6,800 nucleotides of DNA from Candidatus Latescibacterota bacterium (GTDB lineage: Bacteria > JAAXHH01 > JACQVL01). The position numbers and the translations under genes were made by a program. The notes below the pieces were generated by a model. That model ran no database searches, was not told where the DNA came from, and worked only from the letters and a program-made list of their open reading frames with translations. The stretch spans positions 1 to 6,800 of the forward strand of contig JACQVL010000199.1 of assembly GCA_016209865.1 (NCBI GenBank), given 5' to 3'. Positions 1 through 6,800 of this stretch are shown piece after piece; the first letter of the stretch is position 1, and each line of letters opens with the position of its first letter.

Positions 1-413
1 AGGGTGTTCATCTGGAGGCCGCGCAACGGGGCGAGCACGGGCGGGGAGACATCGCGATGCCAGCTTGCCGGGCCGTGATCATGCTCCGGGCTGCACATGC
101 AGGCCATGTACGTCACCCCCACCTTCGGAGCCTCCATCAGCCGCTGGCTGACTCCAAACGTGTTTTCTTGCAGACAGAACTGGATCGCCTCGATCGTTAT
201 CTTATCGAAGTCCTCGTCGAACTTCAGTCTCGGCTGCGCGGAGGCTTCCCAGGCGCCGCCCGGCGGCTCGTCCGGCTTGCGTCGTGCCACGGAGAGCGCC
301 TTGCGCCGCTCGACCATCGTCTCGACACGCTCGCGCAATCGTTCTATCTGCTCCGGAGCGACGAGGCCACGAAGAATGAGGTACCCGTCGTTCATCAACT
401 GTTGCCGGTCCAC
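1..413 (-). CDS. PhyH-family (phytanoyl-CoA dioxygenase-like) oxygenase, N-terminal part, cut by the window edge
   Basis: The frame stays open from the start to base 1, giving about 137-139 residues, so the C-terminal half lies outside the window. Two in-frame starts exist: ATG at 419 and GTG at 413. The AGGAGG at 426-421 sits only 1 nt from the ATG but 7 nt from the GTG, so I prefer the GTG. Counting from the ATG, the N-terminus has the usual family opening (DGYLILRGLVAPEQIERLRE, residues 11-30), which is a strand followed by a helix. A WHRD motif follows, with H121 and D123 as the expected first two ligands of the HxD...H iron triad; the distal His and the 2-oxoglutarate-binding Arg would be off the edge. 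The family comprises Fe(II)/2-oxoglutarate hydroxylases of varied small molecules, probably cytosolic here. The gene follows E2 so closely that its ribosome site overlaps the E2 stop, which suggests it is last or late in the dehydrogenase operon. Family is fairly certain; substrate unknown. Confidence 0.87.
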   Translation of the reverse strand, partial: MDRQQLMNDGYLILRGLVAPEQIERLRERVETMVERRKALSVARRKPDEPPGGAWEASAQPRLKFDEDFDKITIEAIQFCLQENTFGVSQRLMEAPKVGVTYMACMCSPEHDHGPASWHRDVSPPVLAPLRGLQMNT

Positions 414-420
414 GTCCATC

Positions 421-428
421 CCTCCTCA
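421..428 (-). promoter_or_regulatory. Shine-Dalgarno overlapping the E2 stop codon
   Basis: On the minus strand the bases read TGAGGAGG. The TGA (428-426) ends E2, and AGGAGG (426-421) is a near-perfect ribosome site for the downstream PhyH gene. It lies 7 nt from GTG 413 and only 1 nt from ATG 419, which favours the GTG as start. The overlap suggests that ribosomes finishing E2 re-initiate on the oxygenase. Confidence 0.7.
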
Positions 429-1658
429 TCGAGTCAACCACAGGTAGGGCTGTTCCACATACTCACGCACGGTGCTCAGAAAACGGGCCGCCGGGCCGCC
501 GTCCACCACCCGATGGTCGAACGTCAGGCTGAGCGTCATCATGGCGCGCGGGACGACCTGGCCGCCGTGGACGGCTGGCTTGCTGACGATCCGGCCGACG
601 CCCAAGATGGCGCATTGGGGCAGGTTGATGAGCGGGGTGAACGCGTCGATGCCGTACATCCCTAAGTTGGTGATCGTGAACGTCCCCCCTTGCGTCTCGT
701 CGAGCTTCAACGCGCGCGTCCGGGCTTTCTCGGCCAGGCCGGTGGATTCGGCAGCGATCTGCTGCAGGCTCCTGGCGGCCGCGTCGCGGATGACCGGGAC
801 GAGCAGTCCGGCATCGGTATCGACGGCGACCCCGATATGAACCTGAGCGTGGACGACGATCTCGTCGCCGCGCCAGGTGGCGTTCAGCATCGGGTGTTCC
901 ACCAGAGCAACGGCGGTGAGTTTGACCATCAGGTCGGTGTACGTCGGGACGCTCCGCTCGCGCGACGTCAGGGAAGCCTTGATCTTGTCGCGCAGGACGA
1001 CGAGTTCGGTCGCGTCCGCTTCGGTCGTCAGGGTGACCGCCGCGGCGGTCTGCGCGCTCTCGGCCATGCGCTGGGCGATGATCCGCCGGATGGGCGTGAC
1101 CGGCCGCGCTTCCCCGGCTGCCAGGACGGGCGCAGGGGAGGCCGTTGCCGTCAGACGTGCCGCCGCTCGCACGTCCCGCTCGATGATCCGTCCGGTCCGG
1201 CCGCTGCCGTTGACGGCGTTCCAGTCGACCCCCAGCTCGGCGGCGACCCGGCGCGCGCGGGGACTGATGCGGGGACCACGACGCCGGGTTGAGACGGTCG
1301 GTCCCGACGCTGATTCACGCGGCATCCCAGCTGCGACCTGTGTATCTGCTGTCGCCGTGACCGAGATCGCGGACTCCTGGCGCGCATCCGGCTGTTCGAA
1401 CGGGGCAACCTCGCCCGGCTGGACGATGTACGCGAGCAGCGTCCCGACCGGCATCACGGTATCGGGTGGGGGCGAGTCGGGCGGGATGCGCAGGATGCCG
1501 GAGTCGAACGACTCCACCTCGTTGATCGTCTTGTCGCTCTCGACGGTGAGCAGGACGTCTCCGGCCTGGACGGCGTCCCCGTCTTTCTTCAGCCACTCGA
1601 CCAGCCGGCCCTGTTCCATCGTCCAGCCCAGACGGGGCATGACGATTGCGATTGCCAT
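426..1658 (-). CDS. Dihydrolipoamide acyltransferase (E2) of a 2-oxoacid dehydrogenase complex
   Basis: This 410-residue protein has the full E2 layout. The lipoyl domain (about 1-80) carries the lipoylated lysine K43 in the ESDKTINEVES context. An Ala/Pro/Thr-rich linker (about 85-128) follows, then a peripheral subunit-binding domain (about 130-163, SPRARRVAAELGVD...GRIIERDV) that docks E1 and/or E3. The catalytic acyltransferase domain (about 185-410) has the conserved ITNLGMYGIDAFTPLIN stretch (329-345) and the active-site motif DHRVVDG (381-387, His382). It transfers the acyl group from lipoamide to CoA and forms the core of the cytosolic complex. ATG 1658 has AGGAGG 7 nt upstream (1671-1666), which fixes the start. 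It follows E1 beta after an unusually long 177-nt spacer. Length is normal for a single-lipoyl E2 of pyruvate or acetoin type (pdhC/acoC-like). The motifs do not tell pyruvate, acetoin and branched-chain substrates apart, so I give no symbol. Confidence 0.95.
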   Translation of the reverse strand: MAIAIVMPRLGWTMEQGRLVEWLKKDGDAVQAGDVLLTVESDKTINEVESFDSGILRIPPDSPPPDTVMPVGTLLAYIVQPGEVAPFEQPDARQESAISVTATADTQVAAGMPRESASGPTVSTRRRGPRISPRARRVAAELGVDWNAVNGSGRTGRIIERDVRAAARLTATASPAPVLAAGEARPVTPIRRIIAQRMAESAQTAAAVTLTTEADATELVVLRDKIKASLTSRERSVPTYTDLMVKLTAVALVEHPMLNATWRGDEIVVHAQVHIGVAVDTDAGLLVPVIRDAAARSLQQIAAESTGLAEKARTRALKLDETQGGTFTITNLGMYGIDAFTPLINLPQCAILGVGRIVSKPAVHGGQVVPRAMMTLSLTFDHRVVDGGPAARFLSTVREYVEQPYLWLTR

Positions 1659-1700
1659 GCGGTAACCTCCTTGTTCAGTCCCTCACCCCCGGCCCAACCT

Positions 1701-1803
1701 GGGCAGATGGGCAGTCCCTGCACACCCACCCTACCCCGCCAGGCAGGTAGGCAGTAGACGGGGGAACGGCTTCGACTGCCCACTGCCCATTGCCCACCTG
1801 CCC
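1701..1803 (-). repeat. Heptamer-rich inverted repeat in the E1 beta-E2 spacer, able to form a long hairpin
   Basis: This lies in the 177-nt non-coding gap 1659-1835. Written on the plus strand, 1777-1803 is a run of TGCCCAC, TGCCCAT, TGCCCAC and CTGCCC units. The opposite orientation appears at 1701-1714 (GGGCAGATGGGCAG), and a degenerate form (AGGCAGGTAGGCAG) at 1741-1754. The arms 1701-1716 and 1774-1788 pair over 15 bp with a single bulged base. Inside the loop, 1734-1740 (CCCCGCC) and 1759-1765 (GACGGGG) can pair in the minus-strand RNA, with one G-U pair. It ends 30 nt before the E2 ribosome site begins and could be an mRNA processing, stabilising or attenuation element. A mobile or intergenic short-repeat family is equally possible. 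It lacks a U-tract, so it is not a classical intrinsic terminator. Confidence 0.6.
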
Positions 1804-1835
1804 GGTGGAAGGGAGAAGGTGGTGAGGTCTCGCCC

Positions 1836-2813
1836 CTACTCTGCTACGACATCCCGGATGGCCTGGGCGATCGCGGGCGGCTGCGGGACGACCGCGGCTT
1901 CCAGCGGGGCGCTGTACGGCACGGGCGTCTGCACGCCGTTCAGGCGGCGCACGGGCGCGTCCAGGTCGTCGAACGCCCGATCCATCACCTGGGCCGCGAC
2001 CTCCGCGCCGATGGCGCACGGAGCGAACGTCTCATCCACGATCAGCAGCCGGCCGGTCTTGTGGACGGATTCGATGATCGTGTCGATGTCGAGCGGCGCC
2101 ACCGTCCGCGGGTCGATGACCTCCACGGAGATGCCCTCCTGGACGAGTTGTTCGCAGACCTCCAGCGTTTTTTTCACCATGAGAGCGATCGCCACGACCG
2201 TGACGTCCGTACCCTGCCGGCAGACCGACGCCTGGCCGAACGGGACGGTGTACTCCCCCTCCGGCACCGGGCCTTTCGTGTTCAACAGAGACTTGTGTTC
2301 CAGGAAGAGCACCGGATCGTCGCTCCGGATCGAAGTCTTGAGCAATCCCTTCGCGTCGTATGGGGTGGTCGGGATGACCACCCTGAAGCCTGGGAGGTGG
2401 ACGAAGATGGAGGCATAGCTCCCCGAGTGATGCGTGGCGGACGCCCCGCCGACGCCGATGCAGCCGCGCAGGACGAGCGGCATCTTCAGCCGGCCGCTGC
2501 TCATGTACTGCATCTTGGCTGCCTGGTTGATCAGTTCTCCCATCGCGTCCAAGATGAAATCGATGAACATGAAATCCACCACCGGGCGGGTGCCGGTCAT
2601 CGCCGCGCCCACGCACAGACCGACGAAGCCTCGTTCGCAGATCGGGGTATCCCGCAACCGCTCCGGCCCGTAGAGGTCGTAGAGGCCGGTGGTGGTGTTA
2701 AAATTGCCGCCGCGCCGGCCGATCCCTTCCCCGACGACGAAGATCGTCGGGTCACTCGCCATCTCTTCGGCCAGCCCCTCATGGGCGGCTGCGGTGAACG
2801 TCAACTCTCGCAT
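1836..2813 (-). CDS. TPP-dependent 2-oxoacid dehydrogenase E1 subunit beta
   Basis: This 325-residue protein is the full normal length for an E1 beta of pyruvate/acetoin type (pdhB/acoB-like). The N-terminal pyrimidine-binding transketolase fold shows VVGEGIG (26-32). In the TPICERGFVG stretch (56-65), Glu60 matches the family glutamate that contacts the TPP aminopyrimidine. GAAMTG...DFMFIDFI (69-87) and the HHSGSY histidines (128-129), typical of the active-site region, follow. The C-terminal transketolase domain contains VIDPRTVAPLD (232-242), the usual DxRT-x-x-PLD signature. It pairs with E1 alpha as an alpha2beta2 tetramer that decarboxylates the 2-oxo substrate and reductively acylates the E2 lipoyl group. 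ATG 2813 lies 6 nt past the E1 alpha stop, and the GTGAGG before it overlaps that stop codon, implying translational coupling. No disruption seen. Substrate not resolved. Confidence 0.95.
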   Translation of the reverse strand: MRELTFTAAAHEGLAEEMASDPTIFVVGEGIGRRGGNFNTTTGLYDLYGPERLRDTPICERGFVGLCVGAAMTGTRPVVDFMFIDFILDAMGELINQAAKMQYMSSGRLKMPLVLRGCIGVGGASATHHSGSYASIFVHLPGFRVVIPTTPYDAKGLLKTSIRSDDPVLFLEHKSLLNTKGPVPEGEYTVPFGQASVCRQGTDVTVVAIALMVKKTLEVCEQLVQEGISVEVIDPRTVAPLDIDTIIESVHKTGRLLIVDETFAPCAIGAEVAAQVMDRAFDDLDAPVRRLNGVQTPVPYSAPLEAAVVPQPPAIAQAIRDVVAE

Positions 2814-2819
2814 GTCGCC

Positions 2820-3839
2820 TCACTTTCCGGTGCTGTACACATGATCCAACGCTGTCGCCGGGTCGGGCCACGGGCTGTCCATGGCGAACTGCAGCCCGTC
2901 TTCGATGAGCGTCTTGACCTCAGCGTCGATCTGGTCGCACTCGTCCTCGCTGGCCATCCCGGTCGCCATCACGTGCGCTCTGAAATGAGGGATGGGGTCG
3001 CGGGCTTTCCAGGCTTCGATCTCTTCCACCGTCCGGTAGCCCGCGTCGCGCATCCCTTCCGCGTGCGGCCGGGTGCGGTACGTCTTACACTCGATCAGGG
3101 TCGGCCCGCCGCCCGCGCGGGCCCGCGAGATCGCCTCGCCAGCGGCCTTGTACACCGCGATGACGTCGTTGCCGTCGACCGCCACGCCGGGCAGACCATA
3201 GACGGCGGCCCGCGACGCGACGTCCTGGTTCCTGGTCGCGGACGCGAAGGGGACTTCGGTCGCGTACATGTTGTTCTCACAGACGAACAGCGTCGGAAGC
3301 TCCCAAACGGCGGCCATGTTCAGCCCCTCATGGAACGCCCCGTTATTGACCGCCCCATCCCCGAAGAAGGCCACACCGACCCGGTCGGTCTTGAGCAGCT
3401 TGAACGAGTACCCGGCCCCGGTCGCCTGCAAGATGCAGGGGGCCACGATGCCGCTCGTCCCCATCATCCCGACCTCGGGGGCGAACAGGTGCATACTCCC
3501 TCCGCGGCCGGCTGAGCATCCGGTGGCCTTCCCGAACAACTCCGCGATGACCCGGCGGACGCTGACCCCTTTGGCCAGGGCGTGGCCATGCCCGCGATGC
3601 GTACTGAACACCGCATCGTCCGGCCGTAGGTGCGCGCAGACACCCGTCGCCACCGCCTCCTGGCCGATATACGTATGGCAGGCGCCGGGGATGAACCCGG
3701 CCTGGTACGACCGCGCCAACTGCTCCTCACACCGTCGGATGACCAGCATCTGGCGGTACAACGCTAAGGACGTGCGCCGGTCGAGCCGGGTGTTCGTTGC
3801 CTGTGCCACCGATTTCTGTCCTGTGGCCTTTGACTTCAT
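2820..3839 (-). CDS. TPP-dependent 2-oxoacid dehydrogenase E1 subunit alpha
   Basis: I start this gene at ATG 3839 (339 residues) because AGGAG at 3852-3848 is 8 nt upstream; the in-frame GTG at 3845 would leave only 2 nt. The protein has the TPP-binding signature: GDG at 160-162 and the paired Asn at 189-190 (CENNMYA), inside the typical GDGAVNNGAFHEGLNMAAVW stretch. The upstream THRGHGHALAKG and GRGGSMHLF segments match E1 alpha substrate and cofactor loops. The later segment YRTRPHAEGMRDAGYRTVEE replaces the YRxxGHS-type loop familiar from pyruvate E1 alpha, so the substrate may differ. With E1 beta it forms the decarboxylase of the complex (pdhA/acoA-like). It lies in the same direction as the PhyH-HEAT gene, about 49 nt downstream of its stop with no visible terminator between, so it is probably co-transcribed with it. 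Confidence 0.95.
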   Translation of the reverse strand: MKSKATGQKSVAQATNTRLDRRTSLALYRQMLVIRRCEEQLARSYQAGFIPGACHTYIGQEAVATGVCAHLRPDDAVFSTHRGHGHALAKGVSVRRVIAELFGKATGCSAGRGGSMHLFAPEVGMMGTSGIVAPCILQATGAGYSFKLLKTDRVGVAFFGDGAVNNGAFHEGLNMAAVWELPTLFVCENNMYATEVPFASATRNQDVASRAAVYGLPGVAVDGNDVIAVYKAAGEAISRARAGGGPTLIECKTYRTRPHAEGMRDAGYRTVEEIEAWKARDPIPHFRAHVMATGMASEDECDQIDAEVKTLIEDGLQFAMDSPWPDPATALDHVYSTGK

Positions 3840-3847
3840 GTTCACTT

Positions 3848-3852
3848 CTCCT
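3848..3852 (-). promoter_or_regulatory. Shine-Dalgarno that selects the E1 alpha start
   Basis: AGGAG on the minus strand lies 8 nt before ATG 3839 and only 2 nt before GTG 3845. The spacing favours the ATG, so the protein should begin MKSKATGQ rather than two residues earlier. Confidence 0.6.
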
Positions 3853-3888
3853 GGGGGGTGAATGGTTGGTGTGTGCGCTCGCAGGGGA

Positions 3889-5241
3889 TCAGTACGGGTT
3901 TTCCTTCGTGGTGATCGGGCACCATCGGGATGTCTCGAAAAACCGGAAGACCGCCGTTCGAGCGGCTCGCGTGCCGATTCGCTCCAGTGCCTTGGCCGCT
4001 TTGGCGCGCACGTACCGGTTGTCGTCCCGCAGCGCCTGAATCAACGCCGGGGTAGCGGACTCGGCGAGCTTCCCCATCCGGGCAAACGTCAGCGCCGCGT
4101 TCCGGCGGACCCACTCATCGCGGTCGCGGAGCGCCTCGACCAGGGCCGGGATGGCCGCCTGTGCCGCCTCAGGCATCGTCCCCAGCGCCTCAGCCGCATG
4201 GCGGCGCACCCGATCCGACTCATCACGCAGGGCGGTCATCACGACGGGCGCTGCCTCCGCAGCCGGCCGGCCGATATCTCCCAGGGTATCGACGGCTGAC
4301 GCCCGCGTCCATTCGCGTGAGTCGTGCGCCGCGTCGATCAAGGCGGACACAGCCGGCGGCCCGATCGCGCTCAGGGCGTACCCGGCGTTGCGGCGTCCCG
4401 TCTCCGGCTCGTCCCTCAGCGCCTCGATCAAGGCGGACACAGCCGGCGGCCCGATCGCGCCCAGGGCATACCCGGCCTGGAGACACGCCGTCTCTGACTC
4501 GCTCCGCAATGCCTGAATGAGTTCAGCGAGAGTCCCATCCCCTGCGGTCTCATGAGAAGCATGATTTGGGGCGCCGCAGTACCAGTCCCAGATACTCCGC
4601 CACATCAGCGACTCTCCGGTGGACGACGTGTTCTTCGCGGCGTTCCAGGACGGACGTGTGGGTTCCTCCAGCCGGGTGAACAGAAACTTCACCATGTACC
4701 GTTTCTTCTCGCTGTAGTTGGGCATCGCCCGGTGCCACAGGTCGTAGTGGACGATCGTCACCGTCCCCGCCTCGCCGCAAAGCGGGACTTCAGGATTCAC
4801 GCCGGGACCGGTATTGTAGTACTGCGACCCGGGGGTGACTCCTGTCGGCCCCATCTCCTCGGTGACATCCTGCGGATAATAGAACGCCATCCCCCAGCGG
4901 GTGCGATGGTGCTGTTTCGTCCAGGAATCCTTGTGCAGGTGCTGGCCGCTGCTCCCCGGCGGGTTGAAATGGCAGTACCGGTGCGGGTGCAGGAAGCAGT
5001 CCGGTCCCAGGACGCTGGTCAGCGCGCCCTGAACCGTTGGGTGATCGAAGATATCCTGAATCTCAGGGATCCTGGGCAGCAGGTTGTTGCCCGGATTCCC
5101 TTCCTTCTCGACCATCTCCTCGATCTGCCGGTAGATCGAGGCATGGAACTCCGGCGGGAAGTCCACCGTGACGGTGACATACCCGTTGGCGATAAACTCT
5201 CTCATCCTGGCATTATTCAGGAGGTTTGCTCGATGCGGCAT
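3889..5241 (-). CDS. PhyH-family oxygenase fused to a C-terminal HEAT-repeat domain
   Basis: This 450-residue protein has two parts. Residues about 10-215 are a PhyH-type Fe(II)/2-oxoglutarate oxygenase. The iron ligands are H103 and D105 (HLHKDSW) and H170 (YDLWHRAMPN), and R181 lies 11 residues after the distal His, the same spacing as the 2-oxoglutarate-binding Arg in human phytanoyl-CoA hydroxylase. GPTGVTPGSQYY (131-142) is the usual family turn. All catalytic residues are present, so it should be active. Residues about 236-425 are five to six HEAT-like alpha-helical repeats (ALIEALRDEPE..RRNAGYALSAIG pattern, period about 30-37), normally a protein-binding solenoid. Free PhyH proteins are usually about 250-300 residues, so the repeats are an addition, with one unit nearly duplicated at DNA level. 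ATG 5241 has AAAGGA 8 nt upstream. No signal peptide, so cytosolic. It is first in the putative minus-strand operon before E1 alpha. The substrate and the HEAT partner are unknown. Confidence 0.92.
   Translation of the reverse strand: MPHRANLLNNARMREFIANGYVTVTVDFPPEFHASIYRQIEEMVEKEGNPGNNLLPRIPEIQDIFDHPTVQGALTSVLGPDCFLHPHRYCHFNPPGSSGQHLHKDSWTKQHHRTRWGMAFYYPQDVTEEMGPTGVTPGSQYYNTGPGVNPEVPLCGEAGTVTIVHYDLWHRAMPNYSEKKRYMVKFLFTRLEEPTRPSWNAAKNTSSTGESLMWRSIWDWYCGAPNHASHETAGDGTLAELIQALRSESETACLQAGYALGAIGPPAVSALIEALRDEPETGRRNAGYALSAIGPPAVSALIDAAHDSREWTRASAVDTLGDIGRPAAEAAPVVMTALRDESDRVRRHAAEALGTMPEAAQAAIPALVEALRDRDEWVRRNAALTFARMGKLAESATPALIQALRDDNRYVRAKAAKALERIGTRAARTAVFRFFETSRWCPITTKENPY
4331..4476 (-). 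repeat. Two 56-bp direct repeats encoding consecutive HEAT units
   Basis: The blocks 4331-4386 and 4421-4476 match at 53 of 56 positions, including a perfect 37-bp run (4334-4370 and 4424-4460). The 90-bp offset equals 30 codons, so the copies encode the repeated GYALxAIGPPAVSALI segment (about residues 257-272 and 287-302). The other HEAT units of this gene are much less alike, so this looks like a recent in-frame duplication or a gene-converted pair. Confidence 0.9.
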
Positions 5242-5273
5242 AGAAAATATCCTTTCGTTTTCACAAAATTTTA

Positions 5274-5301
5274 TTGACGTGATCGTTGGGATACCTAATT
5301 T
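5274..5301 (+). promoter_or_regulatory. Candidate sigma-70-type promoter for the unknown protein and PhyH pair
   Basis: TTGACG (5274-5279) matches 5 of 6 bases of a -35 box. After a 16-nt spacer TAATTT (5296-5301) is a weak -10 box, matching 3 of 6. The AT-rich stretch 5260-5273, with AAAATTTT, resembles an UP element. The predicted start near 5308 would give a leader of about 50 nt before ATG 5360. The organism's sigma consensus is unknown, so this is tentative. Confidence 0.4.
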
Positions 5302-5324
5302 AACGTATTTTAGAGCAAGGTCAA
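5297..5324 (-). promoter_or_regulatory. Candidate sigma-70-type promoter for the minus-strand operon
   Basis: On the minus strand TTGACC (5324-5319) is a 5-of-6 -35 box. After 16 nt TAAATT (5302-5297) is a 4-of-6 -10 box. The start would fall near 5290, leaving about 50 nt of leader before ATG 5241. Its -10 occupies nearly the same bases as the -10 of the plus-strand candidate, so the two promoters could not both be occupied at once if both are real. Confidence 0.4.
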
Positions 5325-5359
5325 TGGTTCAATCGAGCCCCATACCGAAAGGAGAACGG

Positions 5360-5728
5360 ATGGTCGAACTCAAGCAGCGACTGGAACAGTGTCTGGCTCA
5401 TGTTCGCGCCGGGACGCTGACAGAGGCCGAGATTCTCGACATGATCAAGACGGTCGACGACGCGATCACCAGACGACCGAAGCAGAGCTTGCTCTACATC
5501 CAGGCTCCCACATCGCACCCTTACTCCACCGTGATCGGCATGAGCATCTTCGAGGAAGGGAAGGACGCCGACGGCGTCAACGAGAAGGGAGAATTCCTCT
5601 ACAAGTCGATCAAAGAGGCATTAGACGACGGATGGCGCATCGTCAAGTTCCCCGAGATGACCCTGGCCATGGACGAGCAGAACACCTACGGCCTCGGGTA
5701 TGAGTTCATCCTTGAACGCTGGAGGTGA
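5360..5728 (+). CDS. Unrecognised 122-residue protein upstream of a PhyH gene
   Basis: I do not recognise this protein. ATG 5360 is chosen because AAAGGAG (5348-5354) lies 5 nt before it; the frame is open back to 5168, but that would run through the divergent promoter region and the start of the PhyH-HEAT gene. Residues about 1-40 look helical and charged (KQRLEQCLAHVRAGTLTEAE). The rest looks like a small alpha/beta domain, with an aromatic, conserved-looking C-terminus (GWRIVKFPEM...YGLGYEFILERW). There is no signal peptide, membrane segment or metal-ligand cluster. The stop TGA is embedded in GGAGGTGA, whose GGAGG serves as the ribosome site of the next gene 9 nt further on, so the two are a coupled pair. 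By context it could be an accessory, chaperone or regulatory partner of the PhyH enzyme; this is inference only. Confidence 0.82.
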   Translation: MVELKQRLEQCLAHVRAGTLTEAEILDMIKTVDDAITRRPKQSLLYIQAPTSHPYSTVIGMSIFEEGKDADGVNEKGEFLYKSIKEALDDGWRIVKFPEMTLAMDEQNTYGLGYEFILERWR

Positions 5729-5734
5729 CCCACG

Positions 5735-6613
5735 ATGTTGTCGAAAGCCCCGTACAACGAGACGTGTGACTGCCCGCCGACGCTCACCGACCGGGATATG
5801 ATCGATTTCTGCCGGAACGGGTACCTGATCCTCCCCGGCGTCGTCCCGGATGAGGTCAACCAGAAGGTGGTGGATTACCTCGACACCATGGACAGCACGT
5901 ACGAGCCGACTCCGATCATGCAGCGGGAGTGGTTCGTCGACGGCGTCCTGAAGAACCCGCAGGCCGCGGGCGCGGTGCGGTCGCTGTTAGGCAAGAATTT
6001 TACCCTTCCAGCCATCATCAGCAACCACCGGGGGCCGCTCCCCTGGCCGCACACGGGCGGATGGCACCGCGACGGCGGGTCGATCTACACCCCGAAACTC
6101 GACTACCTGCAAGTGTTCTACTGGCCAGAGGAATGTACGGACGACATGGGACCGACCGAAGTCCTGCCCGGCTCGCATTTCATGCGGACGAAAGCGACGC
6201 TCATGTCCCACTACGGCAAGATCGCGGGCAGCGTCTCCTCCGCCGGCCCGGCCGGAACGATCTTCCTGACGGTGTATAGCATCTGGCACCGGCGAACCCG
6301 CGCCACCTCGGGGCCGCGCGGCAAGAGCAAGTTCCGCAACCTGCTGAAGTACAACTACTGGCGGACAAGCCCGCCGCAGCGCGACTGGATCATCGACCCC
6401 ACGATCGATTTCAACCTGATCAACTTCAACCCGCCCGCCGGGCAGTTCGAGCAGTTCCAGGGTGGCATCGCCGCGGCCCGGATGTTCTGCTGGCTGTGCG
6501 GCATCGAAGATCAGTACGAAAAGCTCGGCGGTCAATGCTGGCCGATCGCCTTGACCGTCCGGGACAGGGTCAACCAGATGGGCTCCCCGGCTGCGCTGCA
6601 GAATCCGGTCTAA
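5735..6613 (+). CDS. PhyH-family (phytanoyl-CoA dioxygenase-like) Fe(II)/2-oxoglutarate oxygenase
   Basis: This complete 292-residue protein is of standard length for the family. The N-terminus has the typical FCRNGYLILPGVVPDEV opening (25-41). The iron ligands are H111 and D113 (GGWHRDGG) and H185 (YSIWHRRT), with MGPTEVLPGSH (138-148) as the usual loop. The 2-oxoglutarate Arg should be R195 or R201; R201, just before NLLKYNYWR, fits the alignment pattern best but implies a small insertion after the distal His compared with the PhyH-HEAT protein. Members hydroxylate varied small molecules (acyl-CoA, ectoine, phosphonates, secondary metabolites), so the name should not be read as a substrate. 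The C-terminal 60 residues include a Cys-rich FCWLC segment (251-255). The GGAGG at 5721-5725 is 9 nt upstream and overlaps the previous gene's stop. Its own stop overlaps that of a convergent gene. Confidence 0.94.
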   Translation: MLSKAPYNETCDCPPTLTDRDMIDFCRNGYLILPGVVPDEVNQKVVDYLDTMDSTYEPTPIMQREWFVDGVLKNPQAAGAVRSLLGKNFTLPAIISNHRGPLPWPHTGGWHRDGGSIYTPKLDYLQVFYWPEECTDDMGPTEVLPGSHFMRTKATLMSHYGKIAGSVSSAGPAGTIFLTVYSIWHRRTRATSGPRGKSKFRNLLKYNYWRTSPPQRDWIIDPTIDFNLINFNPPAGQFEQFQGGIAAARMFCWLCGIEDQYEKLGGQCWPIALTVRDRVNQMGSPAALQNPV

Positions 6614-6800
6614 TGCCCCGTCGCTGGATACGTCCCGTATTCGACGATGACCTCCACGTCCTCGACCGTCACCCCGCCTTTAAGGCCTGGAGGACGCTCT
6701 CGCAGGGAGAGTTCTAACAAGTTCTGGCCTTGTTGGGGACGCACGCGATCCAGGTCGAACTCAAGCCACAGCCCGGAGTACGGGTCGAGCGACCGGATGG
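6610..6800 (-). CDS. C-terminal end of an unidentified convergent protein, cut by the window edge
   Basis: Only the last 62 codons are visible, ending at TAG 6612-6610. The frame enters from base 6800 without interruption and reads like real protein: LDPYSGLWLEFDLDRVRPQQ, then a GQNLLELSLRERP segment, then VTVEDVEVIVEYG close to the end. The alternating hydrophobic and polar strands and the VEDVEVIVEY ending look like the last strands of a beta-sandwich (carbohydrate-binding or galactose-binding-like) domain, of the kind that ends many large glycoside-hydrolase-like proteins of environmental bacteria. That assignment is from pattern memory and is weak. Its stop overlaps the stop of the plus-strand PhyH gene (shared bases 6610-6613), so the two genes converge with no room for a terminator between them. 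Confidence 0.7.
   Translation of the reverse strand, partial: IRSLDPYSGLWLEFDLDRVRPQQGQNLLELSLRERPPGLKGGVTVEDVEVIVEYGTYPATGH

Follow-up and report, generated by a model that had tools for sequence, protein, structure and literature searches.

A PhyH oxygenase fused to a HEAT-repeat arm in uncultured bacteria, and a conserved small gene accompanying its unfused relatives

The window (the whole stretch of DNA analysed, 6,800 nucleotides long) carries on its minus strand a gene for a 450-residue protein in which a PhyH oxygenase is fused to a HEAT-repeat arm (3889..5241), recognised by its open reading frame, its Pfam matches and 104 homologues. The frame begins with ATG, with AAAGGA at 5250-5255, eight bases 5' of the start, and both frame and domains bear out a sequence-only reading that had described PhyH followed in frame by HEAT without naming the strand. 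Three parts succeed one another along the chain: a PhyH oxygenase domain (residues 1-225; 4567..5241, minus strand), whose C-terminal end is a conserved W..W.W..G helix at residues 212-223; a HEAT solenoid of one cap helix and six repeats (residues 238-438; 3928..4530, minus strand), defined by Pfam and AlphaFold; and a C-terminal tail with the motif R-W-C-x-x-T (residues 439-450; 3892..3927, minus strand), defined by AlphaFold and conservation. Downstream on the same strand lie genes for the E1 alpha (2820..3845) and E1 beta (1836..2813) subunits of a 2-oxoacid dehydrogenase, for an E2 acyltransferase with lipoyl and E3-binding domains (426..1658), and for a second PhyH protein, unfused in its readable part and cut by the left end of the contig (3..419); no E3 gene occurs within positions 1-6800. 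On the plus strand, a gene for a small 122-residue protein of an unnamed family (5360..5728) stands 5' of a third, unfused PhyH gene (5735..6613) that follows it after 6 nt.

The enzymatic half of the fusion matches PhyH (PF05721) over residues 55-181 with an E-value of 5.9e-12 and 46.8 bits, against a curated cut-off of 22. Its iron would be held by H103 and D105 within H103-K104-D105 (4927..4935, minus strand; ligands 1 and 2) and by H170 (4732..4734, minus strand; ligand 3), with R181 (4699..4701, minus strand) at the 2-oxoglutarate-binding position eleven residues beyond H170. This HxD...H triad and its arginine had been read from the sequence at exactly these positions, and all four residues are kept in 104/104 of the full-length fusions that we extracted as the set for residue counts and conservation. 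In the predicted model the PhyH part adopts a double-stranded beta-helix fold, and its best structural match when taken alone is FtmOx1 (Z 18.5, 193 residues, 3.7 Å); a sequence search of the PDB with the same part returned no significant match. The jelly roll, the HxD...H motif and the arginine at +11 are common to the PhyH family at large (phytanoyl-CoA dioxygenase, EctD, GriE, SnoN, FtmOx1, PHYHD1), but the solved members matched here stand alone, whereas the fusion family adds a six-repeat HEAT arm and a conserved tail. Judged by its sequence, the window gene is predicted to encode a genuine and widely conserved Fe(II)/2-oxoglutarate-dependent oxygenase with intact catalytic residues.

The arm is equally well defined. 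HEAT_2 (1.5e-32) and HEAT (1.4e-19) lead a set of Pfam matches that all exceed their curated cut-offs, including those for the tandem two-helix repeats of HEAT proteins (PF13646/PF02985), and AlphaFold places six such repeats after the short cap helix, at residues 250-275, 280-304, 310-337, 343-370, 376-403 and 409-438, settling an earlier estimate of five to six at the higher figure. For the full fusion the mean pLDDT is 90.3 and the pTM 0.90, a value which, given domains of comparable size, implies that the model sets PhyH and HEAT as one rigid unit. The full model aligns with GriE (5nci) over 202 residues, SnoN (5ep9) over 205 and H11 (7e06) over 204, the alignments ending at residues 418-420, whereas a model of the PhyH part alone aligns over 189, 183 and 190 residues respectively and ends at 193. 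Because the alignments gain 13-22 residues with the full model and end in its last repeats, part of these repeats probably fills the position that a C-terminal segment takes up in small stand-alone oxygenases; alignment lengths and ranges together suggest that the last HEAT repeat docks back onto the oxygenase.

Conservation across the 104 fusions is distributed unevenly along the chain. No stretch of the protein is better conserved than the 12-residue C-terminal tail (entropy 1.05), which is followed by the PhyH part (1.44), the last repeat (1.48) and the first repeat (1.69), with the middle repeats 2-5 the most variable (1.77-1.94); near-invariant positions in the HEAT part and tail are W440, C441, T444, E250, Y258, R409 and Y410. 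Such peaks at the two ends of the arm and in the tail, as opposed to the middle repeats, fit better with an intramolecular role. The tail is modelled with low confidence (pLDDT about 51), as would be expected if its ordering required substrate, a second chain or the metal.

Full-length fusions are present in all 15 relatives from the window's order and in 1/43 more distant genomes from other families (G054); in the phylum of G054, a second one, 78 of 84 genomes hold at least one strong match and as many as 11 copies each, some of these in tandem. A scan of species genomes added 23 more fusions under the labels Poribacteria, Latescibacterota, Gemmatimonadota and others, as these are given in the sequence records; viral contigs yielded no relatives. 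Within one family of genomes (L155, L170, L171 and L172) the PhyH-HEAT genes stand in head-to-tail tandem pairs, and at L063:3881-5289 (minus strand) the fusion gene is broken near residue 295 into two frames that overlap, through a frameshift or a sequencing error. A tree built on the PhyH part groups all fusions together, apart from their unfused sisters, with support 92/78, rising to 97/94 for the fusions minus three long-branch rows, and it unites the fusions and their six nearest unfused enzymes in one group at 100/96. Pairwise distances in the PhyH and HEAT parts are correlated (Pearson r=0.93, Spearman 0.70), and the whole is consistent with a single clade descended from one old fusion event. 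In the unfused sisters the chain stops a little beyond the W..W..G helix with which the PhyH part closes, so the arm was added behind a complete enzyme. A distant second PhyH-HEAT protein with a large insert in its PhyH part, encoded at L085:2898-4793 (plus strand), is probably an independent fusion; it was too distant to align with the fusion clade and is omitted from the tree.

The unfused relatives have a companion of their own. Members of the family of the small 122-residue protein, for which we found no credible Pfam or PDB match, occur in 77/84 and 15/15 genomes of the two phyla searched. From 75 distinct copies checked, four ran into a contig end, and among the 71 left scorable a PhyH gene lies directly downstream on the same strand in 66, not one of them (0/66) fused to HEAT. 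Conversely, the family has no member in any of 98 fusion loci (0.98 Mb), and it accompanies 11 of the 12 unfused relatives fetched. By these gene arrangements the small gene of about 120 codons and the unfused PhyH form a conserved two-gene module. The simplest reading would be that the HEAT arm has assumed the role of the small protein, but L073, the one unfused relative without the small gene, lets 'replacement' stand only as a correlation: the small gene was lost and the arm gained on one and the same branch, which does not make either the cause of the other.

What surrounds the fusion depends on the branch examined. Neighbourhood genes were taken as the longest open reading frames and labelled by blast, and among about 80 neighbourhoods no neighbour gene is common to all fusions. 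The closest relatives, at 57-59% identity, come from five genomes of one genus and share one operon, in which two enolase-superfamily proteins, an FAA hydrolase and an aldo-keto reductase precede the fusion, the reductase and fusion genes overlapping by 4 bases in one genome. One of the enolase-superfamily proteins resembles talarate/galactarate dehydratase and the FAA hydrolase resembles 2,4-didehydro-3-deoxy-L-rhamnonate hydrolase, similarities which all lie under equivalog cut-offs and do not fix the exact pathway. At L031 the fusion has enolase-superfamily genes on both sides. Since genomes of the operon genus hold 77-94 enolase-superfamily genes (34-94 across the window's genome and its relatives), a single co-occurrence carries little weight; the shared gene order counts for more, but it comes from one genus. 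Other branches of the fusion lie beside M20 peptidase, sulfatase, PhyH, sugar-type oxidoreductase or transporter genes, so widely varied that the sugar-acid context belongs mainly to one branch.

From these observations a mechanism can be proposed. The fusion would belong to a family of Fe(II)/2-oxoglutarate oxygenases that is old and arose once, its members joining a complete PhyH jelly roll to an obligatory six-repeat HEAT arm, and the reaction would be the hydroxylation or oxidative demethylation of a small metabolite, most likely one from sugar or sugar-acid catabolism. The arm would curve back to set its last repeat and conserved tail against the catalytic domain, arm and tail together forming, within the one chain, a lid or structural subunit that stands in for the sisters' separate small protein. 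We consider this picture of a small-metabolite oxygenase, with the HEAT arm as lid or substitute subunit, to be poised evenly between right and wrong. More tentatively, as a possibility on the doubtful side, the small subunit of about 120 residues and the unfused PhyH may constitute an undescribed two-gene oxygenase module of which PhyH-HEAT is the one-chain version, an unrelated HEAT solenoid having replaced the small subunit as the enzyme's lid or substrate-shaping element.

Other explanations were weighed against the small-metabolite oxygenase. That the groove of the HEAT arm recruits a macromolecular substrate, whether a protein or a long polysaccharide chain, for modification by the oxygenase has an obvious appeal: large partners are the classic ligands of HEAT solenoids, the nearest solved folds of the arm are alphaRep binders, and canonical repeats with variable middle surfaces would suit varied partners. 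Yet no candidate partner gene recurs near the fusions, the closest orthologues belong to operons for small-molecule catabolism, several paralogues per genome are found, often in tandem, and the HEAT part is most strongly conserved at its ends and in the tail and not in the middle repeats, so that recruitment of this kind seems somewhat unlikely. The same conservation of both ends and tail could instead reflect a dimer contact, and the single-chain model does not place the tail, as might be expected were the arm mainly a scaffold for oligomerisation or stability, apart from catalysis; such a scaffold alone leaves unexplained the pairing of the sisters with a small protein and its absence from the fusions, and we regard it as unlikely.

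The sequence-only reading had looked next door, suggesting that the E1/E2 dehydrogenase complex might be what the oxygenase modifies or what recruits it, and the window does present fusion, E1 alpha, E1 beta, E2 and PhyH in that order on one strand. Among the fusion neighbourhoods, however, only that of the window includes E1/E2. Homologues of E1 alpha are present in 16/16 genomes searched within the phylum, and in relatives with a close E1 alpha orthologue the E1 beta gene comes next and an unfused PhyH usually adjoins E1 alpha, the fusion never; their closest E1/E2 operons lie elsewhere than the fusions. As a general rule the link is thus close to refuted, and an E1/E2 partner is highly improbable, although the same reading was right that the catalytic centre is intact and that the fusion is real. 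Operons of this kind at L139-L143 and L120-L131 usually have a divergent unfused PhyH beside E1 alpha. That an error of assembly or sequencing merely brought the two parts together, with about codons 225-240 named beforehand as the place to look, might be suspected of a short metagenome-assembly contig of exactly 6,800 bases, but the identical junction in 104 full-length fusions, from independently assembled genomes, refutes such an origin and leaves it a negligible chance; by the same count, the homologues do not always encode the two parts as separate genes.

Poribacterial PhyH proteins were described by Kamke et al. as abundant and of largely unknown roles (PMC3909097). By our count the window's own genome has 77 PhyH genes and its relatives 110-152, so that these uncultured bacteria carry 77-152 per genome, for which hardly any substrates are known. 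One branch whose HEAT arm is fixed, alongside sisters that have a small partner of their own, would offer two handles on how PhyH enzymes acquired new substrates, and on whether some of them require accessory subunits; they also caution that an added HEAT domain need not imply a protein substrate.

Among 5.39 million open papers searched, none turned up that described PhyH-HEAT fusions, and we found nothing on small partner proteins of PhyH. FJS and PHYHD1 are PhyH-family 2'-O-methyl nucleoside demethylases, this activity being reported for a poribacterial member too, and no HEAT arm is mentioned for them, in contrast to the fusion (PMC12709175); one single-sequence comparison of the fusion with PHYHD1 gave a non-significant E of 0.42. 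Deoxyhypusine hydroxylase, a weak match (4d4z), likewise combines HEAT repeats with iron hydroxylation chemistry, but its iron is held in the HEAT repeats by HE motifs, whereas the iron triad of the fusion lies in the PhyH domain; against the four HE motifs of that enzyme, 81/104 fusions have no HE at all in the HEAT part and none has more than three. The phycobilin lyases CpcE/CpcF are matched at 48.3 of 330 and 29.9 of 220 bits, far under the equivalog cut-offs, and NblB too scores far under its curated cut-off. With these PBS-lyase/alphaRep-type HEAT proteins (PF13646, PF03130; CpcE/CpcF, NblB) the fusion has its type of repeat in common, and to it adds an oxygenase.
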